A DNA stretch of 48,270 nucleotides, from NCBI GenBank assembly GCA_019058165.1, contig JAHLVZ010000010.1:1-48270 (forward strand), given 5' to 3'. The notes below the pieces were generated by a model, which saw only the letters and a program-made list of their open reading frames with translations, had not been told where the DNA came from and searched no databases. Origin of the DNA: Candidatus Heimdallarchaeota archaeon. Its GTDB lineage: Archaea; Asgardarchaeota; Heimdallarchaeia; JABLTI01. A program made the position numbers and the translations under genes. Shown here piece after piece: positions 6,739 to 43,051 of this stretch (the first letter of the stretch is position 1; the number at the start of each line of letters is the position of its first letter).

Positions 6739-6766
6739 ATCGAAATGTTCGTTCAAACATAACGAT
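6739..6766 (+). promoter_or_regulatory. Operator-like palindrome upstream of the ECF/SUOX-fold operon
   Basis: The arms ATCGAAATGTT (6739-6749) and AACATAACGAT (6756-6766) are inverted repeats matching at 9 of 11 positions around a 6-base centre. The left arm overlaps the end of a TTTTTTTAT stretch (6732-6740) that could be the TATA element, and the site ends 25 bases before the ATG at 6792. Placement over the promoter fits binding of a dimeric repressor. The regulator is not identified. Confidence 0.55.
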
Positions 6767-6791
6767 ATCTCTTAATTAGCGAGAATTACTA

Positions 6792-7370: not shown

Positions 7371-7371
7371 A

Positions 7372-7392
7372 AATCGAAGTTCATCTTCGATT
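7372..7392 (+). terminator. Intercistronic stem-loop between copy A and ecfT
   Basis: AATCGAAG (7372-7379) and CTTCGATT (7385-7392) form a perfect 8-bp stem with a 5-base loop, starting two bases after the stop of the first operon gene. There is only a weak T-rich sequence after it. It could act as a partial terminator or as a 3' end stabiliser, giving more of the binding protein than of the membrane component. Confidence 0.5.
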
Positions 7393-7418
7393 CTATTAAT
7401 TTAATACTGATTGTTTGG

Positions 7419-8288: not shown

Positions 8289-8300
8289 GAGTGAATAATA

Positions 8301-9642: not shown

Positions 9643-10242
9643 ATGAAAAGATACAGTACCTCTGATCTAATAATAATTGCAATAATGGCAGCCATAGGTC
9701 TAGGTACAAAACAAATCGTACGACCATTAGTATCCTTAATTAGTGTTCCATTAGGTATTCCTGGTGGAGCAATAGTTGGAGGATTTTACATGCTATGGTT
9801 AGTCCTCACAAAAAGACTTGCTCCAAAGACAGGATCCGGGTTTCTTTTTGGATTAACCCAAGCATTAGTTGTAATGATTTTGCCTTTCGGTTCACATGGC
9901 ATTTTCACAATAATCACCTATTCTCTCCCAGGTTTAGCGGTTGATATTGTTGATTTACTTTTTCGATCAAAAAATAATACAGTCTTATGTTCATTAGTAG
10001 AAGGAGCTATTGCTAATTTCGTAGGTTCACTTTCAGTGCTTATTTTGATTTTTAGATTAGAATGGAGATTAACGCTATTCATATCATTGATTGCATTACT
10101 AACTGGGAATATTGGAGGAATCATTGCTCATTACATAGCAAAACAAATTGCAGGTATGATAACTACGGATACGGTGCCTGAAATAGAAGATATCGAAGAA
10201 GAGTTACCAGTTACTGATAAATCTTCTACAAATAAATATTAA
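9643..10242 (+). CDS. ECF transporter S component-like integral membrane protein
   Basis: This is a hydrophobic protein of about 199 residues with some six membrane segments, for example LIIIAIMAAIGLG, LGIPGGAIVGGFYMLWLVL, ALVVMILPFGSHGIF, a loop with PGLAVDIVDLL, and two C-terminal helices before an acidic tail. The GIPGGAIVGG start of helix 2 and the PGLAVDIVDLLF motif resemble YkoE/HMP-type S components. These bind the substrate and associate with EcfT and the ATPases. It is the last gene of the operon and converges on the amidohydrolase. ATG 9643 is used; TTG 9634 in frame is an alternative. The substrate is unknown, and a pterin- or molybdenum-cofactor-related compound is only suggested by the neighbours. 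Confidence 0.8.
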   Translation: MKRYSTSDLIIIAIMAAIGLGTKQIVRPLVSLISVPLGIPGGAIVGGFYMLWLVLTKRLAPKTGSGFLFGLTQALVVMILPFGSHGIFTIITYSLPGLAVDIVDLLFRSKNNTVLCSLVEGAIANFVGSLSVLILIFRLEWRLTLFISLIALLTGNIGGIIAHYIAKQIAGMITTDTVPEIEDIEEELPVTDKSSTNKY

Positions 10243-10257
10243 GTAATTGATTTTAGA

Positions 10258-11817
10258 TCATTGTTCGTAGACTAATTCTCCACCTAAGAAGGTCATGAGA
10301 ACCTGAACACCTTTAATTTCATCTGGTTCTATTTGATAGAGATTTTTCTCTAAAACAATAAAATCAGCTAGTTTCCCAACTTCCAAAGAGCCTTTGATAT
10401 TCTCTTCGAAACTGGAATATGCTGCGTCCAAAGTATAATGGTATATTGCTTCTTCAACAGTGATCTTTATGTCATCAATTGGATGAGAAACTACAGACCA
10501 TATCCCAAAAACGGGACTTAACGGCATATTATCAGAACCAAAGGAAAGTTTAGCTTTCGAATCAATGATTTTCCGGAAATTATTTAGTAGTTTATACTTT
10601 TCTGATCCTAATCTGATTTCATAAAGCTGACCAGGTCTACCCCATCTTCCGGGGAAGTTTGGTTGCATAGATAATACGATACCTAACTTGTTTGCTCTCG
10701 CTAATTTTTCATCTAGTAAATACTCCGCATGTTCAATGCGATGTCTTCCTAAGGATATAATTGCTGGTTTATTGATTCTCTCAAATGTATCAAGAACCAG
10801 ATCAATGGCTTCATCTCCAATTGCATGAGTAACTAATTGCCAATTATTGTCAACTGCTTTTTGATATGTTTCAAACAAAACTTCCTTATCTATATAGAAA
10901 TCGCCTGTTGTTGAAGAGTCATCAAAATATGGATCATAAAGTTTAGCAGTTCTTGCTCCAAGTGAACCATCAGTAAATATTTTTACTCCACCTAGTCTTA
11001 GAATTTCATCACCAAATCCTGACTTTAAACCAGCTTCAAGATAATGATCAAAAGAATCTCGAGGGATATTCATATTTACTCTTACTGTGAGTTGATTCTT
11101 TTTACGAGCAGAAATATAGGATTTTACACACATAATAGGCAAATTATCAGTTATTGAGGTTATACCCAATGAATTTGCTAACTCATTCGCAATAGGAATT
11201 GCTTTATCCAAATCATCTTGTGTCTTCTTTAATTTAGGATTATCAGCGACACGATGACTAAGAGGTGAGGCAATAACTCCGGTAGGTTTCTTTGTTTCTT
11301 GATCAATCTCCAAATCAGGTTCATCCCAAGAAATCTCAAGTTCTTTGAGACCTAGACTGTTTACTACAGCCATGTGCCCACAAACTCGTCGGATATACAA
11401 AGGATTATCAGGAGCAATTTCATCTAATTCTTTCAAAGTTAAATAGCGTTTATCTTCCCAATTACTTTCATCCCATCTATCACCGAAGACCCACTTACCT
11501 TTTGGGGTACTTTTCACTCTTTCTTTGATTTTTTCGAGAGCCTCTTCAGGAGATAGGACTTTATCCAATAATACATCCTTGGATTTTGAAGCCATACTAA
11601 GTAAATGAGTATGAGTGTCATTAAAGCCTGGACACAGAAATTTTCCTTTCAAATCAAGAATTTTTTTTGCATTAGAATAGTCCTTAGAAATTTCGGAATT
11701 ACTACCAACAGCAACGATTTTACCAGCATTTACTGCTATTGCTTCAGCTTGAGGTTGTTTTTTATTCATAGTCACAATAAAAGCATTTTTCACAACAAGA
11801 TCAATTTCATTTGTCAT
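10258..11817 (-). CDS. Amidohydrolase family protein, YtcJ-like (amidohydrolase 3)
   Basis: This is a metal-dependent hydrolase of the amidohydrolase superfamily, related to the YtcJ/exoenzyme-regulatory group acting on amide or N-acyl bonds. Metal-site features are the HxH in CPGFNDTHTHL, the lysine region GGVKIFTDGSLGARTA, the histidines in LVTHAIGDEAID and RHRIEHAEYL, and the aspartate in LSFGSDNMPLSP. The N-terminal strand set EIDLVVKNAFIVTMN and the C-terminal KLADFIVLEKNLY complete the beta-sandwich of the family. The ATG at 11817 is chosen because the family starts there; an in-frame start 19 codons earlier (11874) would add a hydrophobic stretch and overlap the upstream gene. The substrate is unknown and no catabolic operon surrounds it. 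Confidence 0.88.
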   Translation of the reverse strand: MTNEIDLVVKNAFIVTMNKKQPQAEAIAVNAGKIVAVGSNSEISKDYSNAKKILDLKGKFLCPGFNDTHTHLLSMASKSKDVLLDKVLSPEEALEKIKERVKSTPKGKWVFGDRWDESNWEDKRYLTLKELDEIAPDNPLYIRRVCGHMAVVNSLGLKELEISWDEPDLEIDQETKKPTGVIASPLSHRVADNPKLKKTQDDLDKAIPIANELANSLGITSITDNLPIMCVKSYISARKKNQLTVRVNMNIPRDSFDHYLEAGLKSGFGDEILRLGGVKIFTDGSLGARTAKLYDPYFDDSSTTGDFYIDKEVLFETYQKAVDNNWQLVTHAIGDEAIDLVLDTFERINKPAIISLGRHRIEHAEYLLDEKLARANKLGIVLSMQPNFPGRWGRPGQLYEIRLGSEKYKLLNNFRKIIDSKAKLSFGSDNMPLSPVFGIWSVVSHPIDDIKITVEEAIYHYTLDAAYSSFEENIKGSLEVGKLADFIVLEKNLYQIEPDEIKGVQVLMTFLGGELVYEQ

Positions 11818-11866
11818 TTTAATCAAGAAAAGAATTAGAAAATTCAGATTATAGAGTTTTTCCTCA

Positions 11867-12988
11867 CTAATCAAATAACCGATACAATAAACCTAAAATG
11901 AAGGCTAAAAATATGTAAAGAAAAATCCTAAAGAGGTAGCGGAAAATAGGATTTCTTTGAATGATATTTCTGCTACTTTCAATAACATCCATTGTCGGAA
12001 CTTTGGATTCCTTATAGTCTGATAAACTCTTTTCTATTTGTGAGTATGTGTCTTGTTTTTCGATATTTTCTAATGCTTTCTGATACTTTTGATTGTAGAT
12101 ATAGAATTCATTCAATAATTTATTATCAATAGAATCTTTTGAAAGTTCTTTTGTAATTCGCTCTTGCAGTAATTTTGTCCCATATTCATTATCTGTAATC
12201 AGAAAAAGTTCAACTAAAAGAGAAACACCAGAGGGTGGTGCTTGATCAATTACTTCTCGGATATATTTATCTTCATTTGGTTCATCAATTTCTGCAACAA
12301 GTAATTCTATGAACTTTTTTGGATTTGTGTTTATTCTGTGACTAATATCGATGAACCAATTTGTGGGTAAATTTGTGGGTTGAAAAATAGTCACTTGTAA
12401 TAATCCACGAATTAATTCAGAATCAACGCTTATGTTTTTTCCAAAATATTTCAACACAATATCAAATGCTTGCATTTCCGCAGTAACTGAATATCGATAT
12501 AATGCAGCAAGAAGTTTCTCTCGTTTTGTCAAACCAAAGAAAACAGCATCTTCTAAAAATCGTCCAAAAAATAACAGGAAAATTATTTCAAGACAACCTA
12601 CAATTAAACAAATATTTATTGAGAGTTTATCAAATACTACCCCGATTATACAAACAATGAATAAAAGTCCAAAGACAACATAACTTCCAATTAAAATATA
12701 ATTGAAGATTCTTTCTCTCCAACAAATCTTACAGACTTCGTATGCTCCCTTTCTCGTTAGTCTTTCTGATAAATCAGATAGTTTCTCATGAGCTTCTTCT
12801 GAACTATCTTCAGTAGTAATCCATGATCTCAAAGGAAAATTACATTGTTCGCAACGAACGATTTCGGATTCTAATTCATTAGTACTCAATTCTAGTTCAC
12901 TATTTGTTAAACACTTCTTAACAAAAAAGCTTTGGTCGATTGTTTCTTTACCCTGTGGCAGTGTTTTTTGTAAGGAATCAAATGTCAA
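11867..12988 (-). CDS. Membrane protein with split zinc-ribbon-like N-terminus and C-terminal anchor
   Basis: I do not recognise this 373-residue family. Cysteine pairs C46-C49 (CEQCNF) and C86-C89 (CKICW) could bind a zinc ion, separated by an acidic 35-residue insert. Two adjacent membrane helices follow at about 97-118 and 124-143. A cytosolic helical region of about 200 residues is next (for example LLAALYRYSVTAEMQAFDIVL), and a final helix at about 350-370 anchors the C-terminus. The start is TTG 12988. The mid-region could be a helical-repeat adaptor. Adjacent genes give no functional clue. A membrane-tethered scaffold or ubiquitin-like-pathway role would be speculation. Confidence 0.72.
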   Translation of the reverse strand: MTFDSLQKTLPQGKETIDQSFFVKKCLTNSELELSTNELESEIVRCEQCNFPLRSWITTEDSSEEAHEKLSDLSERLTRKGAYEVCKICWRERIFNYILIGSYVVFGLLFIVCIIGVVFDKLSINICLIVGCLEIIFLLFFGRFLEDAVFFGLTKREKLLAALYRYSVTAEMQAFDIVLKYFGKNISVDSELIRGLLQVTIFQPTNLPTNWFIDISHRINTNPKKFIELLVAEIDEPNEDKYIREVIDQAPPSGVSLLVELFLITDNEYGTKLLQERITKELSKDSIDNKLLNEFYIYNQKYQKALENIEKQDTYSQIEKSLSDYKESKVPTMDVIESSRNIIQRNPIFRYLFRIFLYIFLAFILGLLYRLFD

Positions 12989-13443: not shown

Positions 13444-14004
13444 GTGAGACTATTAGCAAAAGTAGTTCTGGCAGGAGATGGAGGAGTTGGTAAAACGACT
13501 TTAATCCATCGCTATATTACTAATAGTTTTATCGATTCTACAAAGCTAACGATAGGCGCTGCATTTCACACTCATGAAATACAAGCAGGAGAGCATTCTG
13601 TTTTAGTCCAAATATGGGACTTGGGAGGACAAGAGCAATTCAAACAGATGGGAATCTTTGACAAGTACTTCAAAGGCGCTACTGTTACGGTAGTTATGTT
13701 TGATTTGACTAGACTAAATACTTTGAATAGTATTCCTGAATGGGCGGATTTAGCTTTAAATTCTAGTAATACTAAACTAATTTTAGTTGGTGGAAAAAAG
13801 GATTTGGCACAAGGTATAACCTTTGAATTGGATTCCTTTGAAGAACTCAACGAAAAATATAACTTCGAAACATATCTTGAAACCTCTTCAGCTACAGGTG
13901 ATGGTGTAGATAATGTTTTTCAAGCAATTGCTAATGTTATCATTGACACTACAATCGAAAAGAAGCTAAACGGTCCAAAGCAAGACACAACTATACCTAA
14001 ATAA
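13444..14004 (+). CDS. Rab/Ras-like small GTPase
   Basis: The protein is a 186-residue GTPase domain of the Ras/Rab type. G1 is GDGGVGKT (residues 11-18), the switch I threonine lies in LTIGAAF (T36), and G3 is WDLGGQE (58-64), where Rab proteins have WDTAGQE. G5 is TSSATGDG (147-154). The G4 motif reads GGKKD (116-120) instead of NKxD, so guanine recognition lacks the usual asparagine. The C-terminus ends DTTIPK with no cysteine, so it cannot be prenylated. The GTG start has an AGGTGG site seven bases upstream. A helical-repeat gene follows in the same direction but has its own TATA-like element. Confidence 0.9.
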   Translation: MRLLAKVVLAGDGGVGKTTLIHRYITNSFIDSTKLTIGAAFHTHEIQAGEHSVLVQIWDLGGQEQFKQMGIFDKYFKGATVTVVMFDLTRLNTLNSIPEWADLALNSSNTKLILVGGKKDLAQGITFELDSFEELNEKYNFETYLETSSATGDGVDNVFQAIANVIIDTTIEKKLNGPKQDTTIPK

Positions 14005-14926: not shown

Positions 14927-15742
14927 TCACTTGTTTTCAATAATTTGGTGCATAATACTCTCGAGATGAGCAATTTGTATTATGCCTACTAAATGTCGTC
15001 CAGCAACTAGAATAGTGGGTAAAGCAGTTATCCCATATGCTTCAGCAATATTAGGATCCTTTTCAGCGTCTATCGTTTCGACTTCTAAAGCGTATTTCTT
15101 GGCAACTTTCTCAATGTGATTTAATGCCACTTTAGACCAAGCATCACCTTTCTTAACAAAAAACAATATCTTTGTTGCTATTTCTTCTAGAAGTTTTGGG
15201 GAAATGTCTGGTGTTGGAATTAAACCACTAACAATTTCTGTGATGATTAAATTGAAAGCAGCATCTACATTCGTATCAGTTTTTGCACTTGTGAAAATTA
15301 AATTTGCTTTAGCAGCTGGTGTATCACCCAGCTTTTTAACATTATATGCTAATGGAAGATGATTTGATTTTGCTAAATCTAATTTAGTGCCAACAACAAT
15401 AACCGGGACATCTTTACCATTTGCTTCCTTTAAATCGTCATACCAACCAGGCAAATTATCAAAAGTTTCTTCTTTAGTTAAATCATATGCAAGGATAGCT
15501 CCTGAGGCTCCTTGTAAATATCTTAAACCTATTTTTCTTCTGCTTTGTTGACCAGCTATATCCCAAATCATTAGTTTAACTTTAGATTCTGGATACTCGA
15601 ATGTTCTAACATAGAAATTAAGACCGAGCGTAGTCATGTAGTCTTTCTTAAAAGAATCAAAAATGTATCTTTGAACCAAACTTGTCTTACCAACTCCTGG
15701 ATCTCCAAGTAAGACAATTTTTCTTTGAAACATTTTTGACAT
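14927..15742 (-). CDS. Rab-like GTPase fused to a thioredoxin-fold domain lacking CxxC
   Basis: Residues 1 to about 175 are a Rab/Ras-type GTPase: G1 GDPGVGKT (13-20), switch I TTLGLNF, G3 WDIAGQQ (60-66), G4 TKLD (119-122, asparagine replaced by threonine) and G5 TSAK (151-154). Residues about 190-268 read as a glutaredoxin/thioredoxin fold. A first strand KILFFVKKG is followed by a helix and by VETIDAEKDPNIAEAYGI. The cis-proline segment ALPTILVAGRHLVG and a last helix complete the fold. The place of the CxxC pair holds D-A-W-S, so the domain cannot be a dithiol redox enzyme and may be a protein-binding module. The ATG at 15742 or 15733 may be used. I know of no well-described protein with this architecture. 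Confidence 0.88.
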   Translation of the reverse strand: MSKMFQRKIVLLGDPGVGKTSLVQRYIFDSFKKDYMTTLGLNFYVRTFEYPESKVKLMIWDIAGQQSRRKIGLRYLQGASGAILAYDLTKEETFDNLPGWYDDLKEANGKDVPVIVVGTKLDLAKSNHLPLAYNVKKLGDTPAAKANLIFTSAKTDTNVDAAFNLIITEIVSGLIPTPDISPKLLEEIATKILFFVKKGDAWSKVALNHIEKVAKKYALEVETIDAEKDPNIAEAYGITALPTILVAGRHLVGIIQIAHLESIMHQIIENK

Positions 15743-30402: not shown

Positions 30403-30978
30403 CTAATATTCTTCGCAAATAAGTTCGTAGTGATGATGATCATGTCCACATACTGGGCATATCTTTGGTGGTTCTTCACCTTCGTATATGTAACCACAGA
30501 CGCGACATTTCCATCGTTTTTTCTCTGATTTTTTGAATACTGTACCAGCTTTAACTTGCTCTAATAGAGCAAGGTATCTCTTCTCATGTTCAACTTCAAC
30601 TTTTGCGATATTTTTGAATTTCAAAGCAACTTCTGGGAATCCTTCTTCTTCTGCGACCTTAGCAAATCCTGGATACAATATTGTATGTTCTTCGTTTTCA
30701 CCCATAGCAGCGAATTTTAGATTATCTGCTGTTGTGCCAATGTCAGCTGGATATCCTGCAGTAAATTCCACCATACCACCTTTTAAGAAGCTAAAGAATT
30801 GTTTTGCATGTTGATATTCATTGTATGCAGTTTCTTCAAAAATAGCTGCAATTTGTTTGTAGCCTTCTTTATTAGCTACTTTCGCGTACATTGTATATCT
30901 TCCACGTGCTTGAGATTCCCCAGCAAAAGCTTTCATGAGGTTTTTTTCTGTTTCAGTGCCTTTTATTGATTTACCCAT
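30403..30978 (-). CDS. rbr: Rubrerythrin
   Basis: Rubrerythrin reduces hydrogen peroxide with electrons from a reduced rubredoxin-type site. The diiron domain shows GESQARGRY (E21), YNEYQHA (E54, H57), the GENEEHTI glutamates and the [10 protein letters not shown] segment (E128, H131). The C-terminal rubredoxin domain has C158-C161 ([10 protein letters not shown]) and C174-C177 (CPVCG). At 191 residues it has the classical length. It lies 15 bases after desulfoferrodoxin and is cotranscribed with it. Peroxide made by superoxide reduction would be removed by this protein. Confidence 0.97.
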
Positions 30979-30993
30979 TTCGTATTCACTCGT

Positions 30994-31386
30994 TTAATTT
31001 TTCCATAAACCGTGCTTATTACAATATTCTCGGGCAATGACTCCTTCAGCTTTCATTTTGAATTTAGCTTTAGGATCATCTCCTGGTTTCAAGAATTTAC
31101 GATAAGCCTTACCGTCTTTGATTACTTCAATCCACTCAATGTAATGATCTTCTTCCATTGGGTGGGGTGTACTACCAACAACGACTTTGATGCCTTTTAG
31201 GTTGCCATCATCGTCTTTCTTCTCTTTGATAACTGGGACATGTTTTTCATTTTTAAAGTCTGCAGTTTTCTCTTCGAGAAGATTCATTGGTTCACCACAG
31301 CAAACTAATTGACCTCCTCCAGCATGAAGGACTTCAACTATATTGCCGCATATCTCGCATTTATAAATTTGTAATTTTTCTGTCAT
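30994..31386 (-). CDS. dfx: Desulfoferrodoxin (superoxide reductase, two-centre type)
   Basis: The protein reduces superoxide to hydrogen peroxide. The N-terminal desulforedoxin-type FeCys4 site has C10, C13, C29 and C30 (YKCEICG, VCCGEPM). The catalytic centre has the conserved lysine in EKHVPVI with H49, H75 and H81 in [14 protein letters not shown], and C122 and H125 in [10 protein letters not shown]. The 130-residue length fits the two-iron-centre class. The ATG has a CTGGAG site. It is probably transcribed from its own promoter in the 131-base gap upstream, where a TTTATAATTTATAG stretch lies, and continues into rubrerythrin. Confidence 0.97.
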
Positions 31387-31479
31387 AACGAGTTCTCCAG
31401 TAATAGCTTTTTAGCTAAGTGTCTTATTAATAATTTTTCTATAAATTATAAAGTAGTAAATTATTATAAGCATGAAAAA

Positions 31480-31524
31480 AGAAAATAAAAGCTAGAATTC
31501 CTGAATTTTTTGGAATTCTACTTT
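31480..31524 (-). terminator. Stem-loop at the end of the flavodiiron gene
   Basis: TAGAATTCC and GGAATTCTA (31512-31520 and 31493-31501) form a perfect 9-bp stem that includes the stop codon of the flavodiiron gene. Flanking AAAG and CTTT can extend it past one bulged base. A T-rich tract (TTTTATTTTCTTTTTT) follows on the minus strand. It separates this gene from dfx-rbr. Confidence 0.6.
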
Positions 31525-32705
31525 AGAATACCTAATTCTTTGTGTTTTTTCTGAATAGTATCTGCTAATGCATCTAATTGCTTTTTACCTTCTTCAGTTA
31601 CTTTTCCTCGAACTAAAACTGGGTCGAGAATTTCAGCTTTTACTCGAGTAAGCATACCTGTAAGCTGTTCAAGCATTTGACTCTTCCAACCAAAAGAACC
31701 AATTACTGTCAAATGCTTAGCTTTTGGTCGCAAAGCATTAGTTAGAAAAACAGCATAAGCAGCAAGTGGATGAGCACCCGTTAGGACCGTAGGTGCACCA
31801 ACAACAATTGTCGCAGTATCTACTAGAGCCATTGCAAGTTCACCTAGATCGGTTACAGTTAGATTGAAAGGTTTAACTACAATACCACGTTCAATGAGAA
31901 CTTCAGTTAAATATTCAACCATTTCCTTAACTGAGTGATGCATCGAAACATAAGGTAGTACCACTTCATTTTTCACTTCATCAGAAATCCATTCTTTGTA
32001 AGCATCAATTATATGTTTAGGATTTTTATGAATTGGACCATGACTTGGAGCTATCATATCAAACTCATAATTTTCGAGCTTCTCACAGTGTTTTTTGATA
32101 AGATTTCTGAAAGGCATCATGATTTCAGAATAATACCTTTTAGCGGATTCGTAGGTTTTTGCTTCATCAGTTACAAAAGTTTCTGATTGGGCGAGATGAG
32201 TTCCAAAAAGATCACAAGAAAAGAGAATCTTGTCTTCTACAACTAAGGTGAACATGGTTTCAGGCCAATGAACCCAAGGAGCTTCAATAAATTGAAGTGT
32301 CTTGTCACCTAGTGAAAGAGTCTCTCCATCCTTTTTAACAATGAATTTTTCTTCCGGAATATGTAAATGAACCATAAGATGTTCTTTGCCTTTTGGATTA
32401 GTAACGACTTTTGCTTCAGGATACATTTTAAGGAGTTTAACTAAGCCTTCTGAATGATCCTGCTCAGAGTGATTTGATACAAGATAATCAATAGTCTTGA
32501 CCGGAGATTTAGCAATATTCGCTTTTAACTCGTAGAACTTTGCGCCATCCACAGCATCAATTAAAGCTGTTTTTTTACTACCAATGACAAGATAAGAATT
32601 ATAGGATGTTCCATCCGGTAAAGGTATCAAATCATCGAAGAGTCGTCTATCATAATCCTTTGCTCCAACATAATAGATGTTAGGTTTTATTTCTTGGCTT
32701 ACCAA
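31518..32705 (-). CDS. Flavodiiron protein (FprA/rubredoxin:oxygen oxidoreductase family)
   Basis: The enzyme reduces O2 to water (or NO to N2O) using a diiron site and FMN. The metallo-beta-lactamase-like domain carries the ligands HSEQDHSEG, the APWVHWPETM histidine, FSCDLFG and the PSHGPIHK histidine. The C-terminal flavodoxin domain spans about the last 150 residues (VLPYVSMHHSVKEM, VVGAPTVLTG, GSFGWKSQM). There is no rubredoxin tail. The start is placed at TTG 32705, with GAGGT seven bases upstream, giving 395 residues; an in-frame TTG at 32774 would add 23 residues with no site. In archaea the donor may be F420H2 or rubredoxin; none is encoded here. Confidence 0.95.
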   Translation of the reverse strand: MVSQEIKPNIYYVGAKDYDRRLFDDLIPLPDGTSYNSYLVIGSKKTALIDAVDGAKFYELKANIAKSPVKTIDYLVSNHSEQDHSEGLVKLLKMYPEAKVVTNPKGKEHLMVHLHIPEEKFIVKKDGETLSLGDKTLQFIEAPWVHWPETMFTLVVEDKILFSCDLFGTHLAQSETFVTDEAKTYESAKRYYSEIMMPFRNLIKKHCEKLENYEFDMIAPSHGPIHKNPKHIIDAYKEWISDEVKNEVVLPYVSMHHSVKEMVEYLTEVLIERGIVVKPFNLTVTDLGELAMALVDTATIVVGAPTVLTGAHPLAAYAVFLTNALRPKAKHLTVIGSFGWKSQMLEQLTGMLTRVKAEILDPVLVRGKVTEEGKKQLDALADTIQKKHKELGILK

Positions 32706-32817
32706 TTTTTTTACCTCGATTATAGTTAGAATTTCATCTTCTTGAAAAAGATATCGCAAGAAAAAGTGAATCAATTTATTAGAAATTGCTTATTTTCTAA
32801 GATTAAAATGAGAATTG

Positions 32818-32845
32818 TGGTTGTAAAACTATTTTTTTACAACCA
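32818..32845 (-). terminator. Perfect 11-bp inverted repeat between PDO and flavodiiron genes
   Basis: TGGTTGTAAAA (32818-32828) and TTTTACAACCA (32835-32845) are perfectly complementary around a 6-base loop. The element starts 12 bases after the stop of the disulfide oxidoreductase gene on the minus strand. There is no strong T-run afterward, so it may be a terminator, a processing site or an operator for the downstream flavodiiron gene. Confidence 0.55.
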
Positions 32846-32856
32846 ATTATTTGAAT

Positions 32857-33537
32857 TTATGTGAATGGACTTTTTTCTCCTGTTTTTTCCAAAGCGCTAA
32901 GTATTTGTTGAAGTAAGACTTCCTCTGTTACTAAGCCTTCTACACTTCCATAGCCATTGTTAATTATTGTATTTGGCACACCAAAGATATCGAAATCTGC
33001 AGCTAGCTGAGCAAATTGCGAGGACTCGATCATTTCCGCTGTTATGTTATCATTAGCTAATGCTAATTTGTGAGCTCGTATCACCATTGCTGGGCAATAA
33101 GGGCATTCAAGAGTAACAAAGACTTTTAGATTTACTTTGTGTGTAATTTTCTTAAGTAATTCTTCTGCTCCTGGGGTGAGTATAGGTTTTCTGCTGGAAA
33201 CTAACATAATTGATTCAATTAATGTAGTAAATTCTTTTCCTGCAGGAACTCCGTAGAATCTAATCCCGTAATCTTTATCTCCATCAACTGCTATTGCGGG
33301 ATGTCTTTCTATCCCGTACTTTTTCGCTTTTGGATCATTTTCTTCACAATCACAAATTTCAACTTTGATCTTATCAGATAATTCTGCAACAGAATTCACT
33401 AAAGAAATCATTTCATTACAGAATAAACAATGATTCTTTGAAGAAAAGACCTTCAAGGTAACAGGCTCTATCATATCAGTAAAGCGCTGCATAACAATCG
33501 CTTTCAAGCTTTCATCCATTAATGTTGACACTACCAT
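32857..33537 (-). CDS. Protein disulfide oxidoreductase (glutaredoxin-like, two thioredoxin folds)
   Basis: This 226-residue protein has two thioredoxin-fold halves, each with a CxxC: CLFC at C37-C40 and CPYC at C145-C148. The cis-proline sites are RHPAIAVDG and FGVPNTIIN. This is the archaeal PDO family that forms, reduces or shuffles disulfides in the cytosol. The ATG has an AAGGAG site. Downstream are flavodiiron, superoxide reductase and rubrerythrin genes in the same direction, a coherent oxygen-defence group. It is the only CxxC-bearing thioredoxin-type protein seen in the window. Confidence 0.93.
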   Translation of the reverse strand: MVVSTLMDESLKAIVMQRFTDMIEPVTLKVFSSKNHCLFCNEMISLVNSVAELSDKIKVEICDCEENDPKAKKYGIERHPAIAVDGDKDYGIRFYGVPAGKEFTTLIESIMLVSSRKPILTPGAEELLKKITHKVNLKVFVTLECPYCPAMVIRAHKLALANDNITAEMIESSQFAQLAADFDIFGVPNTIINNGYGSVEGLVTEEVLLQQILSALEKTGEKSPFT

Positions 33538-33847: not shown

Positions 33848-35992
33848 TTGCAACAAACTCTTGAGGAAGTAACACAAAGTTTCCATTCATTATTAACTCA
33901 TGATTTCAATGTAGATGGTATATCAGAAATAATGGCGGCTAGATTAGGGAAGGGTGGAACAGAAGTATACATCATACACCCCAAGCATATGGTAAACTAT
34001 GGGGTAAAAATTAATGAGAAAATCAACACTATGTGTGTTGCTCAAACAAGCTTAGATAGAGGATTTGAGTTAGTAACAGGAGATATCAAAGGTGTTGTTC
34101 GAATTAATTCTCGAAATGGTAAACCTTTCTTTAGTAAAGATATTAAGGATGGAATTCGTCTGCCTTCTGCTGTTCTTCGAGCAGCACCAGGGGATATGAA
34201 TGGAAATAAACTTTCAGAGATAGTTGTTGGTTGTGCAAATGGCGAAGTAGTTATGATTGAGAGAATCCCCGGGAAAAAACATCGATGGGATAAAATCAGA
34301 GGATTCTCATTAGGTAAAGTTTACCAGCAACCAGTAAACAATGTCATAACCGGAGATTTCAATGGAAATGGACAAATAGGATTTATTGCGGGATCCAAAG
34401 ATGGTATGTTCAAAGAAATTGAATTCAGACCACAATTACAGAAATTCGATTTAATAGGGGAATTCAGAGTAGAAACAGAACCTAGTTTTTGCTTTAGCGG
34501 AGATATTGACCGAGATGGCATCTCAGAAGTTATGATCGGAGAATACTCCGGAAGACTGAGCATATTCAAACGAAATAGATTAATGTCTATTCACAATTTG
34601 GATGGAGCAATAACTTGCGGTGCTGTAGGTGATGTTGATAATGATCGACAACTGGAAGTAGTTGTTGGAACTGCAAATGGATCATTTCATATTTTCCGTC
34701 AAAACACCATGGAAAGCTATGAGGGGTACAGTAATATTAACGATCTTCGCATCGGAGATTTAAATGGTAATAGTTCAAATGATTTGGTTTTCTCAATTGA
34801 TAAAAGAAGAATTGTTGCATTTAGTTTTATGAGAGATAAATCAAGAGAAAAACCAAATGCTGAATTACTACCATATCAAAGTGTTACTCTGGCTGGAGCG
34901 AAACCACCTGCCCCACATTCACCTGACGTTACAAATAATTTCTGTCCCAATTGCCAATCACAAGTTCGATTCATAGAACAGTATAGACGCTGGTACTGTT
35001 ATAGTTGTCGTCAATATGTTGCTCCTGTAAGCAAGCAAGAATCAGCTACCAGAAAACCACAAATTGATGCTCAAACTCATGGGAGTCCATATTCTATTGG
35101 TTCTCCTTATGAACCGTATCCACCTTATGCGGCTCAAACCAATGGTCAAACACAACAAGGTATTGACAAAGTAAAATCAAAAGTGGAAAGCTCACTTGCA
35201 GCTATAGGTGAAAGTAAGGAAATTGAATGGCAAGAAGATAAAGAACAACCTGTAGAGGTCGAACCCGAAGCTAATTACTTTTTACCTTTAGATTTGGAAG
35301 CTGATCCTGAGGCAGGAGCAGAATTTTTCAATGATATTTTGAAAATCAGACATGTTATTCTTATTCATGCACAATCCGGTGTTCCTTTATTCAGTCAAGG
35401 TTTTGGAAAGGATATTGATGTCTCATTAACAAGTGGATTCTTGAGCGCAGTTGGTACGTTTACTGAAGAAATGTCTGGAGAAACAGATAAACGAATTGGT
35501 GTTTTCAGTGAGATCGGTCGAGAAGGTTTTTGGATTATAATCTACGAAGGAGAACATTCTAAAACAGCTCTATTGGTTACTGAAAAGTTGGGAGCTCTAA
35601 TAAAGAAGCGAATAAAATTCTTCATGAATGAATTCGAAGCTAATTATAAGGAAGCCCTTTTGAATTTCACAGGATTTATTTCTACTTTTACCGGTGCAAC
35701 AGACTTACTTGAAAAGCATTTGAGACTCGAATATCTTTATCCATTAAAACCTGACGTCAAAAGAATGAGGTTAACAGCAATTACTCAAAACGAAAAGAAA
35801 TTAGCAAAAACTTACACTGAATTTTTATCAAAAACAGAGGATGAAGTATTTTATGTCACAGAATTGATAGATTTGGCTTATCAAAACCCTGAGATAAACC
35901 TTTCGAAAGAAGATGTATTAATTGTTCTAATTAAATATCTAGAAAATAGTATGTTAATTCCCTTACCACCACCACCTGATGATACTTTCTAG
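33848..35992 (+). CDS. FG-GAP beta-propeller / zinc-ribbon / longin-like domain protein
   Basis: Residues about 12-330 contain six FG-GAP/VCBS-like blades, each with a calcium-loop pattern: DFNVDGISEI (19-28), GDMNGNKLSEI (115-125), GDFNGNGQIGF (169-179), GDIDRDGISEV (218-228), GDVDNDRQLEV (261-271) and GDLNGNSSNDL (303-313). A zinc ribbon follows (C366-C369, C384-C387). Next is a disordered Pro/Gln/Tyr-rich linker. Residues about 497-610 resemble a MON1/Fuzzy-type longin domain (RHVILIHAQSGVPLFSQGF, LTSGFLSAVGTF), and a helical end follows. There is no signal peptide, so it is intracellular, unlike most FG-GAP proteins. The start TTG 33848 is the only in-frame option before the first blade. 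Its architecture recalls eukaryotic trafficking or nutrient-sensing propellers, by analogy only. Confidence 0.85.
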   Translation: MQQTLEEVTQSFHSLLTHDFNVDGISEIMAARLGKGGTEVYIIHPKHMVNYGVKINEKINTMCVAQTSLDRGFELVTGDIKGVVRINSRNGKPFFSKDIKDGIRLPSAVLRAAPGDMNGNKLSEIVVGCANGEVVMIERIPGKKHRWDKIRGFSLGKVYQQPVNNVITGDFNGNGQIGFIAGSKDGMFKEIEFRPQLQKFDLIGEFRVETEPSFCFSGDIDRDGISEVMIGEYSGRLSIFKRNRLMSIHNLDGAITCGAVGDVDNDRQLEVVVGTANGSFHIFRQNTMESYEGYSNINDLRIGDLNGNSSNDLVFSIDKRRIVAFSFMRDKSREKPNAELLPYQSVTLAGAKPPAPHSPDVTNNFCPNCQSQVRFIEQYRRWYCYSCRQYVAPVSKQESATRKPQIDAQTHGSPYSIGSPYEPYPPYAAQTNGQTQQGIDKVKSKVESSLAAIGESKEIEWQEDKEQPVEVEPEANYFLPLDLEADPEAGAEFFNDILKIRHVILIHAQSGVPLFSQGFGKDIDVSLTSGFLSAVGTFTEEMSGETDKRIGVFSEIGREGFWIIIYEGEHSKTALLVTEKLGALIKKRIKFFMNEFEANYKEALLNFTGFISTFTGATDLLEKHLRLEYLYPLKPDVKRMRLTAITQNEKKLAKTYTEFLSKTEDEVFYVTELIDLAYQNPEINLSKEDVLIVLIKYLENSMLIPLPPPPDDTF

Positions 35993-36019
35993 TGGAATTC
36001 TTCAAACATACCTACTACT

Positions 36020-36041
36020 AAAAACTTATGAGTTGTTTTTT
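36020..36041 (+). terminator. Weak stem-loop with T-tract after the propeller gene
   Basis: AAAAACT and AGTT plus TTTTT can pair across a 4-base loop with one bulge, and the sequence ends in six T. It begins 28 bases after the stop at 35992. Short and A/T-rich, it may simply be a T-rich archaeal termination site. Confidence 0.35.
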
Positions 36042-36136
36042 CCTATTCATATTGTCTAAGTGCAAATATTTAGCAAGTTCACATTTCCAAATATTTAATA
36101 TTGAACGTGCTTAAAGAATTTAAGAGGCAAGTTGTT

Positions 36137-39100
36137 ATGTCCCAATTGTTGGAAAAAGCAATAGCTTTAGAAGAAAAAAGCAAATGGAAAAATGCAGCGG
36201 AAACATTTCTTAAAGCTGCAAATGAATTCATTGATTCTGGTAAACCAGAAAGTGCTAAAGAACCTCTACTAAAAGCTATTGAGAATGCAGAGAAAGAAGA
36301 TATTCCATCATTATTAGTAGAAATCATATTTATTTTTGAAAGCATTACTTCTGAAGAAGAAAAAAAGACAGTACTTTTGAAAGCAATAAAACCATTAAAT
36401 CAATTAATTGTAGAAGCAGAAAAAAAGAAGAGATATGATTTATTACTTGATTTTGTTGATAAAAAAGTAATAACTGCAAAAGCAATTCAGAAAGACGTTG
36501 AAGAAGCACAAACAGAAAAAGGGAAGTATCTACAAAAAATTGCTTTATTAATTCTCGCAAGTAAAAAAGATGAAGATAGGAAATTAGGAAATAATTACCT
36601 TAAAGAAGCATCAGAAACATTACTAGAAATTGATAGAAAAGAGGAGAAAGTTCAGGGTGAAATCGAAGCTTTTACACTTCTATTAGAAGAAGGTTATTTG
36701 GAAGAAGGACTTCTTATTTTTGATGGATTGATTGAATACTGTAAAGCAGAGGAATTGTTAGGGAAAGCAACAGATGCAATAAAGATTGTAATAACAAAAG
36801 CACAAGAAATTCTCGTTGGGAAGGGTTCAAAGAAATTATTGAAAGCCGTAAAAGAAAAACTAAATGAAGCAGATCCAGGTGGAGAACTATTAGATCTTGG
36901 AATTGAAAAAGGCAGAGATATTGGTCTAACTGAGACAATTGCTGAAATTGCGCTCATTCTTTCTGAGCATGCACAATTAATTTTTGATAAGAAAAAATAT
37001 GATTCAGCTCTTGAGGTCTATAATAAAGCATTACAATTACTTGTTGAAATTGGTCAAAAAGATTTGGCATTAAAACTAGCTGATGGAATTGTTAAGAATG
37101 CTTATGCTCTTTTGGATTTAAAAGGAATGTTTGCTACTGGTTTGAATTATCTTGCAAGCATTCACCAAATAGAAAAGATAGATTTGGAATATTTGGGAGC
37201 ATTTTATCAAGTAAAAGCTCAAAACATGTTTTCGAGAGGAAGAATTGAAATTGCCTTAGAAGATTACATGAAATCCACAAAAGCATATCTCTTTGGAAAA
37301 CTACTCGAAAAGTTTACCGCTATTGTAGATGAGATTTTTGCTAAAGCGGTTGAGCTAATTGCAAATAATAAAATTGAGATAGCTACAAAATATACTGAAA
37401 GTGGACAAGAAATATTAGAGGGAGTCCAAGCATTTGATCAATTAGGAAATAACTTAAGCCAAATTTCTGTGGCATTAAGTAAAGCAAATCAAATAAAAGA
37501 AGCAGAAAATTTCTCAATAAAGGCTGTTGAGAACTTAATAAAAGCTGGTGACGTAGTAGGAGCTGCAAAATCACACAAAACTTTCGGAGAATCATTATTA
37601 GGGTTAGAACAATATGAAGCAGCAATTTTCCGAATGATTGAAGCATCGAAATTATATAAAAGTGCAAAAACGGAAGAGGAAATACTAGGAGCAATAACAC
37701 CCTTAGTGATAGCAGCAAAAAACAAGCTTAATGAAAAGAATGTAGAATTAGCAAAACTTCTTTTCAATGGCGCTGCTCAGTGCGCTCAACAAAAGGATCC
37801 AATCGCAGAAACAAACATTGTTCTTGAATTTACTGATCACGCAATTTTCAATGGTTTCCCTGAACTTGCTCTAGAATATTTAGCTTACGCAACAAGGGTG
37901 CTGGGGAAAAACTATCCAGAAGAAAACAAGAATATTGTTAATAAATTACTTTCAACTGGAAAGCGATTAGTTATCTCTGATCAAAAATTTGCTTTAGGAA
38001 AAAGTTTCATTGAAACAGGTATCAACACTTTAGCATTACTTGGGGAAAGCCTTGATGCAACCGACCTATTAATAGAACATAGTCAACTTTTATTCGATAA
38101 CAATCAAAATGATTTGGCCAAGGATTTGTTAGTTCAATTAACTAAAATCATCACAAGTGAAAACAACCCAGATATTTTCGCACAAAAAGTTTCCGTTGGT
38201 GCAAAAATTCTCATAGATTATAACTTCATTGAAGAAGGAATTGAATTATTAAGAAAAGCGGTTGGTTCTTACTTAAGTTTGGGTTCAAATGAACCTGTTA
38301 TACAGATAGCATTTTATTGTGCTGAGAAGGCGAAACGAGCTCTCAGTAATAATGAAACTATTCATGCGAAACACTTGTTTATTACTGCTATGGAATTTAG
38401 TTCACTAGTAAATCTGGAAATTCAAGATCAAATTCTTCAAGATTCAACTACCGTTTTCCTTGATTTAGGTGATTTGTATGCTGTTAAAGAATTCCATGAT
38501 TTTGCGAGAAACAATCTTGAAGGTGAGAAGGACTATCTAGCAAAACTAGGAAGATTAATCATTGTTCAAGGAGGTATTTTGAGAGATCAAAAAGAAATGT
38601 TTGAAGAGGCTTCCGAGTTCATTAGAAACGGTATTACAATATTAAATCAAGTTGGAATGCTTGCAGAAGCTGGAGAAGCAGCACTTGCTCAAGGACAATT
38701 ATTCATTGAGAAAGGCAATTATATCTTTGGTGAGGAATTAATCGAAACAGGAGCACAGATCTTCATCAAAACAAACGACTCAGAAAGATCTGGTGATGCA
38801 TTTCAAGCTTTGGCTGATATTAATATTCAACGTGAAAATTGGGCAGATGCATTAAGGCAAATACAATTATCAAACAAATCATATCAACAAGCAAATCTCC
38901 CAGAGAAACTAGCAAATTCAATTTTGAAAACTGCTGAAATTGGAACAAAATCACTCGTTAGTAATCCTGACGGAAATAGAGAATTTGCATTAAGCTGTTT
39001 TGGAATAGCTTCTACTATTGCACAAGAATCACAGATTATTGAAACAACAATAGATGTCTATCTATTTGAGGCAAGAGCTTTTGCGTCAATTAAAGATTAT

Positions 39101-42100
39101 CAAACAACATACAATCTATTTCTACAAGCTGTCAATTTACTCGAACAACAAGATGAGAAAGAGAAATCACCGGGAGTTGCTGAGGAACTCTCCAACTATG
39201 CTACAAGTTTCATATTGGGAGAAGAAACCGAACTTGGATTACATATTGTTGACTTATCTACAGGTATCTATCTTCGACTCAGCCAACCAATAAAAGCTTC
39301 AGAAGTATATATGAAAACTTGTAATTCGCTTTTGAAACAAAATAGAATTGTTGAGGGAGTAAAACTAGTTCTTCTTGCATCAGACACTTTAATGGTTGCA
39401 AATGAATACGACCAAGCAGCAAAAATCCTAGAGGAAATTGCTGATCTCTTATTTGATATGAAAGATTACCAGAACGCTTCCATTGTTACAGGACAAATTG
39501 TCACAGTCCATCAAAAAACTGGGAATATAGATGAACAGAAAAAAGCAATACACAAATTAGTTACTAATGCTCAAGATGTAATTGCTGATGGAAAAATTAT
39601 GGAAGGTGAGCAATTATGGGAACAAGTTGCAAACTACAGTGTTTCAACAAGTCTAGAATTTGCTTTAGAAATCAATGGAATGCGAATCGAGAGTTTGCGA
39701 GCTGCTGGAATGTATAATTCCATGAATAATGCGTTTACACAAATACTACCAATCTTAGAAGAGAATAAGGAACGAATGCTGGAACAAGGAAATATAATAG
39801 CTAATATTGCTGGTGAATTATACGATAAAGATGAATTGGAGCTCTCCAAGGGCTTTATTCAAACTGCAATTGAGTATTATCGAAAATCAGAAAACCATGA
39901 GCATGCAAAAAATCTCTGTTTATCAATGAGTCATAGATTCATTGAGAAAGGAGACGAAGTAAACGGTATAGAATTGATCGATCATGCTGCCAATATTGCT
40001 AATGAAATTGTAGGTTCACATGAAGCAGCTAAAATCTATCTGACTTCAGGTTTCATTTTAGTAGAATTAGGCCATCAAAAAAGCGGGAAATTAGCTATAG
40101 ATAAATCAATTGAAATTGAATTACAAACTAAAAATATGACCGGGTGTAATGAACTTGGTGATATTACACTTGCTAAAGCAGTTGAATTAGCTCAGAGCGA
40201 TTTGGAAAAGGCAAATGATATTTATGAATTAGCCATAACAATATTTGAAAAAGCAGGTGCCTATACAAAAGCAGGAGAAACTTCATCTATAATCGTTGGA
40301 AATCATCTAAGTGTAGGGAAAGCTCTCGAAGCAGTTAATAATGCACAAAAAGCAGTCGAGCTTTATCTTAAAGATAAAAATATTGAAAGAGCCGTAGGAA
40401 CAACAAAACAAATTCTTGAATCAGCTCGAAGATTTTTAGAAGAAAATGAATTAACTAAAGCCGTTCATATTCTAGAGAAAGGCAGATTATTAGTTGAGAA
40501 AATTTCCAGATTTGATCTTCTCGCAATAATTGTTAGTATTTACCTTTCTGCTGCAAACCAATTCTTACCAAACAGAAAATCATCTATTGGAATTTTCTTC
40601 TTGAATAGAGCTTTAGATCTAGCGAATAGCAGTCCAGATCCAGAGGAAATTAAGAGGATTATTAATCTCTCATTGAAACTTGCTATCGAAATAATTAGTA
40701 AGAAGAATTCAATCGCAGGTGCTAAGGTTTTAGAAATTGTGGGAAATCATGATATCTCGAAAAAAGTGCTTCTACCATATGTTTCAGAAACCTACATGGA
40801 AGGAATAAAAATAACACTAGATGTCGAATGGAATATGATTGGTAAAATAACTCGAGATGCTATGCAATTCTTTAAGGCAACAAAACAAGAAGAAAAAATC
40901 AATCAACTAATATCAATTTTGACTAAGAGAGCGAATGCAGATATTATGTTAAATAAACCACAATTAGGATTCTATTTCTTAGATTTTGCAATAAGATTAG
41001 CAAGAGATGCTGAAAGCCAGCAATTATTATCATTAATTGGCAGTGAATCTTTTGAACAATTATTAATTTTAGATCAAGAATCCGACCTAGATATTAGATA
41101 CAAACTGCTAGGCTATTGTTACCAGATGTTTCAAGAAGTTCAAAATATGGATGCAATAGAAAAAGTTGGGAAGGAATTTCTCAAGCTAGGATCTAAAGAT
41201 TTGATTAATAATATGCAATCAGTGAGAGGCTATGATGCATTATTAACTAGTCGTGATATTGCTGTGCAAACACAGAATGACTCATTGATGACAACAGTTA
41301 TTCTAGCATTACTAGATTTTGCTAAGCAATTATCTTCAAATAATGCAAGAACTACTCAAACTACTTTGGAAGATATAATAGAAGGTCTTGAAGCATTTGA
41401 AGTTCCACACTCAAATAGAGCAGAAGTGGACTACAAAGTTATTGGAGATTACATAAAAGCGATCATATCTTTCGGTGAAAAAGAAAGCAAAACGGAAAGT
41501 GATTATGCGTTAGGAAAGAAAATAGTAGAATTATGTATGCGAATTCTAACATTATCAAAGAATCAAGCTGCTATTGAGAAGGAATTAATAGATACACAGA
41601 AGGACTTCCAGAAACTCTATAGAAGAGCAAACAAAGATGCAGCATATCGTTTGAAACACACTGCTCTGCTTTTAATTGATTTAAGAAATTCTGATATCGC
41701 AAATGAAGTCGCAGAAACCTCCTTTAAAACAGCTCAAGCACAATTTGAAAAGAAGAAGTATAGTGATTCAATAAGTTTCTTAGATAGCTCTTTGAAACTC
41801 AATGAAAAATTATCCATGGCAACAGAATTGAAAAACATAGGGCTTTTTGCATTGAGTGCAGGAGACAAATTAGTCACAGAAACAAAAATCCCTGAATCCA
41901 TGACTTTTTATGAAATTGCTGTGGAAGCATTTGATAAAGCTAATGATGATGAAAGCTCAAATCGATTAGTAAATCGAATCTTTCAAACACGAGAATGGGA
42001 TGCAGATGTCAATATTGCATACAAATGTTATAAAATTGCATCTAACTCTGCAGTAAGAGTAAGAAATTTCCAAAAAGCACATGAAATTGCTAATAAATGC

Positions 42101-43051
42101 TTCAATAGAGGTGTTGCGTTTATAGATCAACCACGTATTCCAGCACGCCTTTCTACAAAATTCATCGCATTAGCTGGGAAAATTTTCGAAGATATCGGAG
42201 CAAACAAAGATGCAGCAAATGCTTACGATAATGCAATATTAAAATTCTTACGATTAATAAAAACAAGAAAGAATGTTGAGACAGTTGTAATTGAATTATT
42301 AACAAAAACAGCAGTAAATAGAATGGCAGGGTGTGACATGGATTCTCTTGAAACAATTTTCATACGAATTATGGAACTTGCTGAATTAAAGAAATCTAAG
42401 TTTACTAAGACAATTGCTAGAACCCTAAAGCTAGTAAATTCATCAAAGGTTGGTACCGCGTGGGACTTGATAGCTTCCCTTCCTTTCATATCACATGGTA
42501 GACTCCGGAAAATAATGAGTTCCACTAAAAACAGAATAATATATGACCTATCACAGAAAGGAACATTCGACCGAACGCTCTTCTCATCGACAGATAGATC
42601 ACTCCCACTCTCAGATTATTTACTTGAAAGTCTAATTATTGGTAGAAAAATTGAAGGACAACCAATTAACAAAGATGTCTTCATATCATTAAATAAAATC
42701 CAAGCAATTCGTTCGTACTTCTATTCAGAATACCAACTTTGGGGTAGACTTGAGTTAGATGCAATCTCAAAAGAATTTGGTATTCAGCATAATGATGCTG
42801 TTTCAATTGTCCGAAGAGAATTCTTATCTTCACTTTATATGGGAATTCTTGACAATGATCAGAAAACATTCTATTCCTCCGATAGATTGAAAGCTGAAAT
42901 TTCACTCATCTTGAATCGCGAGCGAAAGAAAGCAGCGATTTTTGATCCAATGCAAGTTGCAAATGAAATGCGTATCCCACCTGATATTATCAAAGAAATA
43001 CTTCGAGAAATTTCTTGTGAAGAAGTAGTTGAAAGTGCAATTGGCTCTTAA
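36137..43051 (+). CDS. Giant TPR-like alpha-solenoid protein with C-terminal winged-helix (PCI-like) region
   Basis: About 2304 residues in one uninterrupted frame. Nearly all of it is helix-turn-helix repeats of TPR type, with alanine/glycine at the usual TPR positions (for example SKWKNAAETFLKAANEFIDS; KKYDSALEVYNKALQLLVEI; GRIEIALEDYMKSTKAYLFG; DWADALRQ-type units later). Residues about 2190-2304 change style into two winged-helix-like units (GRLELDAISKEFGIQHNDA, then IFDPMQVANEMRIPPDIIK), as in PCI-type proteins that cap TPR solenoids. There is no signal peptide, membrane segment or catalytic motif, so a scaffold is likely. ATG 36137 has AGAGG nine bases upstream; TTG 36101 would add 12 residues. 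It follows the propeller/longin gene by 144 bases on the same strand and may be coexpressed. Confidence 0.88.
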   Translation: MSQLLEKAIALEEKSKWKNAAETFLKAANEFIDSGKPESAKEPLLKAIENAEKEDIPSLLVEIIFIFESITSEEEKKTVLLKAIKPLNQLIVEAEKKKRYDLLLDFVDKKVITAKAIQKDVEEAQTEKGKYLQKIALLILASKKDEDRKLGNNYLKEASETLLEIDRKEEKVQGEIEAFTLLLEEGYLEEGLLIFDGLIEYCKAEELLGKATDAIKIVITKAQEILVGKGSKKLLKAVKEKLNEADPGGELLDLGIEKGRDIGLTETIAEIALILSEHAQLIFDKKKYDSALEVYNKALQLLVEIGQKDLALKLADGIVKNAYALLDLKGMFATGLNYLASIHQIEKIDLEYLGAFYQVKAQNMFSRGRIEIALEDYMKSTKAYLFGKLLEKFTAIVDEIFAKAVELIANNKIEIATKYTESGQEILEGVQAFDQLGNNLSQISVALSKANQIKEAENFSIKAVENLIKAGDVVGAAKSHKTFGESLLGLEQYEAAIFRMIEASKLYKSAKTEEEILGAITPLVIAAKNKLNEKNVELAKLLFNGAAQCAQQKDPIAETNIVLEFTDHAIFNGFPELALEYLAYATRVLGKNYPEENKNIVNKLLSTGKRLVISDQKFALGKSFIETGINTLALLGESLDATDLLIEHSQLLFDNNQNDLAKDLLVQLTKIITSENNPDIFAQKVSVGAKILIDYNFIEEGIELLRKAVGSYLSLGSNEPVIQIAFYCAEKAKRALSNNETIHAKHLFITAMEFSSLVNLEIQDQILQDSTTVFLDLGDLYAVKEFHDFARNNLEGEKDYLAKLGRLIIVQGGILRDQKEMFEEASEFIRNGITILNQVGMLAEAGEAALAQGQLFIEKGNYIFGEELIETGAQIFIKTNDSERSGDAFQALADINIQRENWADALRQIQLSNKSYQQANLPEKLANSILKTAEIGTKSLVSNPDGNREFALSCFGIASTIAQESQIIETTIDVYLFEARAFASIKDYQTTYNLFLQAVNLLEQQDEKEKSPGVAEELSNYATSFILGEETELGLHIVDLSTGIYLRLSQPIKASEVYMKTCNSLLKQNRIVEGVKLVLLASDTLMVANEYDQAAKILEEIADLLFDMKDYQNASIVTGQIVTVHQKTGNIDEQKKAIHKLVTNAQDVIADGKIMEGEQLWEQVANYSVSTSLEFALEINGMRIESLRAAGMYNSMNNAFTQILPILEENKERMLEQGNIIANIAGELYDKDELELSKGFIQTAIEYYRKSENHEHAKNLCLSMSHRFIEKGDEVNGIELIDHAANIANEIVGSHEAAKIYLTSGFILVELGHQKSGKLAIDKSIEIELQTKNMTGCNELGDITLAKAVELAQSDLEKANDIYELAITIFEKAGAYTKAGETSSIIVGNHLSVGKALEAVNNAQKAVELYLKDKNIERAVGTTKQILESARRFLEENELTKAVHILEKGRLLVEKISRFDLLAIIVSIYLSAANQFLPNRKSSIGIFFLNRALDLANSSPDPEEIKRIINLSLKLAIEIISKKNSIAGAKVLEIVGNHDISKKVLLPYVSETYMEGIKITLDVEWNMIGKITRDAMQFFKATKQEEKINQLISILTKRANADIMLNKPQLGFYFLDFAIRLARDAESQQLLSLIGSESFEQLLILDQESDLDIRYKLLGYCYQMFQEVQNMDAIEKVGKEFLKLGSKDLINNMQSVRGYDALLTSRDIAVQTQNDSLMTTVILALLDFAKQLSSNNARTTQTTLEDIIEGLEAFEVPHSNRAEVDYKVIGDYIKAIISFGEKESKTESDYALGKKIVELCMRILTLSKNQAAIEKELIDTQKDFQKLYRRANKDAAYRLKHTALLLIDLRNSDIANEVAETSFKTAQAQFEKKKYSDSISFLDSSLKLNEKLSMATELKNIGLFALSAGDKLVTETKIPESMTFYEIAVEAFDKANDDESSNRLVNRIFQTREWDADVNIAYKCYKIASNSAVRVRNFQKAHEIANKCFNRGVAFIDQPRIPARLSTKFIALAGKIFEDIGANKDAANAYDNAILKFLRLIKTRKNVETVVIELLTKTAVNRMAGCDMDSLETIFIRIMELAELKKSKFTKTIARTLKLVNSSKVGTAWDLIASLPFISHGRLRKIMSSTKNRIIYDLSQKGTFDRTLFSSTDRSLPLSDYLLESLIIGRKIEGQPINKDVFISLNKIQAIRSYFYSEYQLWGRLELDAISKEFGIQHNDAVSIVRREFLSSLYMGILDNDQKTFYSSDRLKAEISLILNRERKKAAIFDPMQVANEMRIPPDIIKEILREISCEEVVESAIGS

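Follow-up and report, generated by a model that had tools for sequence, protein, structure and literature searches.

In the KICSTOR complex, the cytosolic FG-GAP propeller protein ITFG2 is found together with KPTN, KICS2 and SZT2, while MON1, FUZ and HPS1 are Rab GEFs that carry several longin domains per chain. The longin fold is a mixed α/β arrangement, made up of a five-stranded sheet with helices, and both MON1 and the roadblock protein MglB are GTPase regulators. Protocoatomer-type coats, the BBSome and IFT combine propellers and α-solenoids with a link to GTPases, and in a protocoatomer protein an N-terminal propeller and an α-solenoid lie in one polypeptide. Among the Asgard archaea, β-propeller and α-solenoid genes within one cistron have been noted in a review (PMC6141808), and such genes have been discussed as possible coat building blocks (PMC6449795). 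The idea of a propeller-plus-solenoid building plan is therefore not new. Earlier work found longin domains in large number in Asgards, along with longin-GTPase fusions (PMC10933270), and reported Asgard homologues of HOPS, CORVET and retromer (PMC10307638). The word "transmembrane" is absent from the main text of PMC10933270, while BBS, propeller, KICSTOR, UFL1 and Mon1 are absent from the main text of PMC10307638. In the literature searched, which did not extend to subscription journals, we found no propeller-longin, propeller-GTPase or longin receptor-tail architectures.

Here, we describe a pair of genes, A and B, in a 48,270-nucleotide stretch of a Candidatus Heimdallarchaeota genome (hereafter the window, meaning the whole stretch analysed). 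Both reading frames were confirmed among the window's open reading frames as first described, and their features are as follows.

33848..35992, + strand: gene A, a cytosolic propeller-zinc ribbon-longin protein of 714 aa, with a TTG start (GTG in some relatives)
33848..34840, + strand: FG-GAP β-propeller of ITFG2/BBS7 type with about seven repeats, residues 1-331 (FG-GAP_3, 6.5e-11)
34943..35008, + strand: zinc ribbon, C366-x2-C369...C384-x2-C387 (CxxC-x14-CxxC)
35324..35962, + strand: C-terminal domain (CTD), a putative longin-type half plus a helical half, residues 493-705, Asgard-wide and lacking a Pfam model
35345..35698, + strand: putative longin-type half of the CTD (PDB matches of profile A6; overlap with Pfam Longin loci)
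35993..36136, + strand: gap of 144 bases between A and B, set by the conserved ATG of B at 36137
36137..43051, + strand: gene B, a helical-repeat protein of about 2,304 aa
36137..42445, + strand: TPR-type α-solenoid (TPR_12 1.5e-10 near residues 283-318; AlphaFold2 of residues 1250-2316)
42599..43048, + strand: putative tandem winged-helix, PCI/UFL1-like C-terminus (alignment A7; Pfam matches in its members)

The ATG at 36137, which begins MSQL.., is conserved in most B orthologues and thus upholds the 144-base gap given by the first-pass annotation, along with the length of B. Divergent from gene A lies an oxidative-stress cluster (30403-33537 in the window) whose members are a rubrerythrin, a desulfoferrodoxin, an ODP-family lactamase and a thioredoxin-like protein, and whose synteny is kept in the genus. 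A convergent MFS gene bounds the pair on the other side, leaving A and B as the only two co-directional genes between these neighbours.

The propeller of A is matched by the Pfam FG-GAP_3 model at 43.1 bits, against a cut-off of 26.9. The initial description of a six-blade FG-GAP propeller was right as to the fold but not the count. Reading of the sequence gives seven FG-GAP-type motifs (D19, D70, D116, D170, D219, D262 and D304), the second of which is degenerate, and their spacing of 42-54 residues makes seven blades likelier than six. By hydropathy, A has no transmembrane segment, in keeping with the intracellular location first proposed for it. As a single sequence searched against the PDB, the propeller has only one significant match, ITFG2 of KICSTOR (E=1.3e-7), and the propeller profile finds ITFG2 again (8.9e-7). 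L075, an FG-GAP propeller from this genus that is extracellular, served as a control and is nearest to PQQ and cell-surface propellers. We rejected the description of the A propeller as an ordinary extracellular FG-GAP domain, because there is no signal or transmembrane segment and because its structure matches are unlike those of the extracellular paralogue.

The early comparison with KICSTOR and the BBSome is thus apt for the propeller of A, while the match to ITFG2 spans only about 70 residues, the Itfg2 Pfam model scores 25.3 bits on A, below its cut-off of 27, and A, unlike ITFG2, also has a zinc ribbon and a longin-type domain. These shortfalls bear on the proposal that the pair is a scaffold of KICSTOR type that senses nutrients or redox state and from which ITFG2 and its partners descend. 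Such a scaffold would fit the oxidative-stress genes divergent from A, and ITFG2 is the best solved-structure match both of A and of Loki cytosolic propellers (for one of these, L142, it is the only PDB match, at 2.4e-9), but with A itself under the Itfg2 cut-off we consider the proposal very improbable. The zinc ribbon of the first description also stands, in that its cysteines, C366 to C387, are invariant in seven orthologues of A; Zn_ribbon_19 matches A only at E=0.019. A linker separates the ribbon from the CTD. An AlphaFold2 model of A, built from six sequences, reached a pLDDT of 30.

The CTD is a very widespread Asgard domain: profile searches detect it in 225 of the 228 Asgard genomes, and the 67 other archaeal genomes yield no match. 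It occurs at 17 places in the source genome and once in each A protein. The CTD of A itself has no Pfam match, with no longin model reaching its cut-off, and NCBIfam returns nothing for A, while related Asgard longins match Pfam longin models, one of them above cut-off. Of the 16 loci recovered with Pfam Longin, the CTD profile matches 8 (E<=4e-9), and of the 25 Roadblock loci it matches none. In one lineage a CTD-type longin fused to an Arf/Ras-like GTPase (L128) matches PF19036, the first longin of FUZ, MON1 and HPS1, at 4.7e-5, and also PF13774. When the joint profile A6 was searched against 177,635 PDB sequences, its top five matches were three MglB and two MON1 entries, each of them marginal (E 0.006-0.009). 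The whole-CTD profile has no match in the PDB (best E=0.13), and no relative is known of the second, helical half. Together, the profile matches support a putative longin-type domain in the first ~120 residues of the CTD (about residues 500-620 of A), as the first reading had supposed; the support comes from profiles and not from the fold model of A, with its pLDDT of 30. Similarity links this family to MglB and to the first of the MON1 longins, but A has a single longin-type domain with a helical half in place of several longins per chain, and is itself sub-threshold. The TRAPP/Ragulator-type longin and roadblock proteins of Asgards, among which longin-GTPase fusions also occur, would belong to the same longin superfamily (PMC10933270).

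In many other proteins, hydropathy places the CTD as a cytosolic tail just after a single membrane segment. These receptor-like proteins, with an N-terminal hydrophobic segment, a large presumed ectodomain and one transmembrane segment, are common across Asgards (L073, L074, L081-L084, L086-L088, L090-L092 and L095-L097; examples are L081:1114-5121, L086:4273-11438, L083:146-5821 and L073:3648-6488). Soluble proteins join the CTD to a HerA-like ATPase (L077), HEAT repeats (L089) or a zinc ribbon (L085). At two further loci (L078:7233-9866 and 9955-12525; L094:7376-9994 and 10001-12562), a HerA-like ATPase ending in the CTD lies beside a convergent protein with about ten transmembrane segments, which ends in the longin half only. 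A 424-aa ORF carries the N-terminal part of the CTD (L098:8257-9531); its contig (G058:C72) also has a Roadblock match, some 180 bases away from that of the CTD.

Gene B encodes the helical-repeat protein of about 2,300 residues that had been read from it. TPR_12 matches at 41.5 bits against a cut-off of 30.1, and AlphaFold2 models residues 1250-2316 as helical hairpins throughout (mean pLDDT 67), with a pLDDT mostly of 70-89 to about residue 1770, lower beyond, and 33-56 over the putative terminal winged helices. By sequence, B has no PDB match at E<=0.1, and a fold search with the model returned generic TPR proteins (Ski3, Ctr9, IFT-A) with TM-scores near 0.1. These results bear on whether A and B could be a primitive membrane coat, a protocoatomer with its propeller and solenoid on two chains. 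The presence of a propeller, a solenoid and a GTPase-linked longin type is consistent with such a coat, as are the IFT-A subunits among the fold matches and the two-gene Asgard precursors proposed in reviews (PMC6141808; PMC6449795), and Asgard relatives score strongly with the BBS7 propeller model. However, the fold matches are generic and their TM-scores low, B is purely of TPR type, no membrane-binding part was identified in A and B, and the pair is restricted to one genus. With propeller and solenoid on separate genes, in contrast to the single polypeptide of a protocoatomer, we regard a coat as quite improbable.

The last 150 residues of B align with those of a paralogue at 17-19% identity (alignment A7). 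Pfam E3_UFM1_ligase matches 5 of the 10 members of this alignment (best 8.1e-6), and PCI matches 3 of the 10. Among the paralogues, PF09743 reaches up to 25.7 bits at this terminus against a cut-off of 23.2 (L062, the sole member above it), and PCI reaches E=0.002. The PCI-like winged helices that had been proposed at this end are supported by way of the paralogues, while B itself is sub-threshold, with no significant Pfam match there. The likeness to UFL1 and PCI proteins lies in the tandem winged helices of the paralogues; B places a TPR solenoid of about 2,100 residues in front of this end. The paralogue, a second solenoid of about 2,308-2,310 aa with about 18% identity to B (L061:1357-8283, on contig C2 of the same genome), is present in most genus genomes, where it keeps its place with a beta-CASP nuclease gene on one side and a GHMP-kinase gene on the other. 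No propeller gene stands beside it, either in the same genome or in the genus. Profile A7 finds weak relatives only in proteins of about 800 aa, mainly from another family, one of which has strong PCI, UFL1 and DDRGK matches (L163). This protein (L163:772-3171) also has VPS28-like matches and may be related to the scaffold of the UFM1 ligase.

It could be supposed from the UFL1 and PCI matches in the paralogues of B, and from the existence in another Asgard family of a protein with PCI, UFL1 and DDRGK domains, that B is an E3/UFMylation-type scaffold, or a PCI-type one in the style of the proteasome lid, COP9 or eIF3, with A as its substrate-sensing propeller. Winged helices of the PCI/UFL1 kind are, however, general assembly modules, and no catalytic or ubiquitin-like partner was found adjoining A and B, so that we judge this the most improbable of the readings considered.

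In all 8 genus genomes whose contigs allow the order to be tested (the window, L009, L010, L011 and L067-L070), A is followed by B. Identity among relatives falls to about 70% for A and about 54% for B, which is conservation far beyond chance. As to the check proposed at first pass, conservation of the gene pair across Asgard genomes, the order holds in every genome of the genus in which it can be tested, and searches beyond the genus returned no solenoid of the B type. Conservation of the order is confined to this genus, in which the surrounding genes are conserved as a whole, and because the flanking rubrerythrin, desulfoferrodoxin, flavodiiron, thioredoxin, MFS and ABC genes keep their order too among the genomes compared, adjacency is weak evidence for a shared function. 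A and B could then be mere neighbours, A being a GTPase adaptor with other partners and the order persisting as part of a conserved region. That the paralogue of B stands alone agrees with this account. Against it, A and B share a strand and possibly a promoter, and a protein from another Asgard genome (L203) joins a B-type C-terminus with a propeller and a longin-type domain in one chain, and we hold it to be somewhat unlikely, if the most serious of the alternatives. Co-regulation of the pair with small GTPases of the window was rejected as evidence, there being no gene link and a distance of at least 18 kb. The window encodes an Arf-like GTPase (2896-3435) and two Ras-like GTPases (13444-14004 and 14927-15742), the second with a weak thioredoxin-like C-terminal match, and the whole source genome has 36 Arf-model matches.

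Fusions in other Asgards connect the same modules directly. Eight genomes of family f28 (L149, L172, L183, L184 and L186-L189) encode proteins, 773-804 aa long where the frame is complete, that join a cytosolic BBS7/ITFG2-like propeller with a Ras-like GTPase, an arrangement conserved in the family (L172:106-2466, L183:1412-3730 and six similar loci). The L172 protein matches Ras at 3.3e-47 and the BBS7 propeller at 6.5e-15 in Pfam, and is the best match of the A propeller profile outside the genus (E=1.3e-13). With the L128 longin-GTPase, it bears out the suggested link of propeller and longin modules to small GTPases. The L203 protein (5352-8420; 1,023 aa, no transmembrane segment) is the only one found with all the parts, namely propeller, winged helices, CTD and zinc ribbon. 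It matches Pfam BBS7 propeller at 4.6e-15, Itfg2 at 3.1e-11, PCI at 8.7e-14 and UFL1 at 6e-7, along with a zinc ribbon and DDRGK, and the CTD profile at 4e-50, while the terminal profile of B matches at 2.3e-9 between propeller and longin-type domain. Related proteins in G080 and G081 have winged-helix and longin-region matches and lack the propeller region. Another family has cytosolic ITFG2/BBS7-like propellers of about 560 aa (L142:892-2586, L174:958-2661 and L177:526-2202), with Pfam scores of up to 88.6 bits for BBS7 and 53.7 bits for Itfg2 and a C-terminal region resembling winged helices; L142 and L203 both exceed the Itfg2 cut-off. The CTD tree does not unite the CTD of A with that of L203, its backbone being open, and the fusions may thus have arisen independently. 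The fusions tie the two main domains of A to GTPases, and to the C-terminal type of B, independently of gene order.

Our preferred, if tentative, reading, to which we give a little less than an even chance, is that A is a cytosolic adaptor acting on small GTPases and B its large scaffold partner, so that the pair would work like KICSTOR, the BBSome or MON1 without being any of these. What is observed are the domains, their conservation, the kinship of the longin family with GTPase regulators and the module fusions in related Asgards; binding of a GTPase by A, contact of A with B and a part for receptor tails are inferred. The longin-type domain of A, paired with a second copy or with another longin, would create a platform, possibly dimeric, on which a Ras/Arf-like GTPase would sit. 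Since the CTD of A is homologous to receptor tails in the genus, tails and adaptor might pair, and the second longin could be the tail of a receptor-like membrane protein in the same cell. The propeller and zinc ribbon of A, together with the superhelix and winged helices of B, would bind additional subunits and position the complex. Counting against this adaptor-scaffold reading are the matches of the longin-type domain to solved structures, each marginal singly, the paralogue of B without a propeller neighbour, the syntenic flanks and the limitation of B-type solenoids to the genus.

The origin of eukaryotic coats, tethers and nutrient-sensing scaffolds is an open question. In related Asgard genomes the building blocks of A and B are fused with one another and with small GTPases. 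Sequence comparison thus suggests that these blocks may represent a forerunner of eukaryotic GTPase-regulating scaffolds, with contact between A and B putative. A bolder and unlikely extension is that signalling across the Asgard phylum is built on one longin-type domain, where single-pass receptors with a cytosolic CTD tail and soluble adaptors like A, which add an ITFG2/BBS7-like propeller to the CTD, would pair through their longins and recruit a small GTPase and scaffolds like B. Parts of this kind would be ancestral to the KICSTOR, BBSome and MON1-type modules of eukaryotes. Asgards join cytosolic propellers, longin-type platforms, PCI/UFL1 winged helices and small GTPases in varied ways, and the analysis exposes in the CTD a very widespread Asgard domain for which neither Pfam nor NCBIfam has a model. 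Together with A, the L172, L203 and L128 proteins provide defined proteins for in vitro tests of the proposed ancestral link between GTPases and scaffolds.
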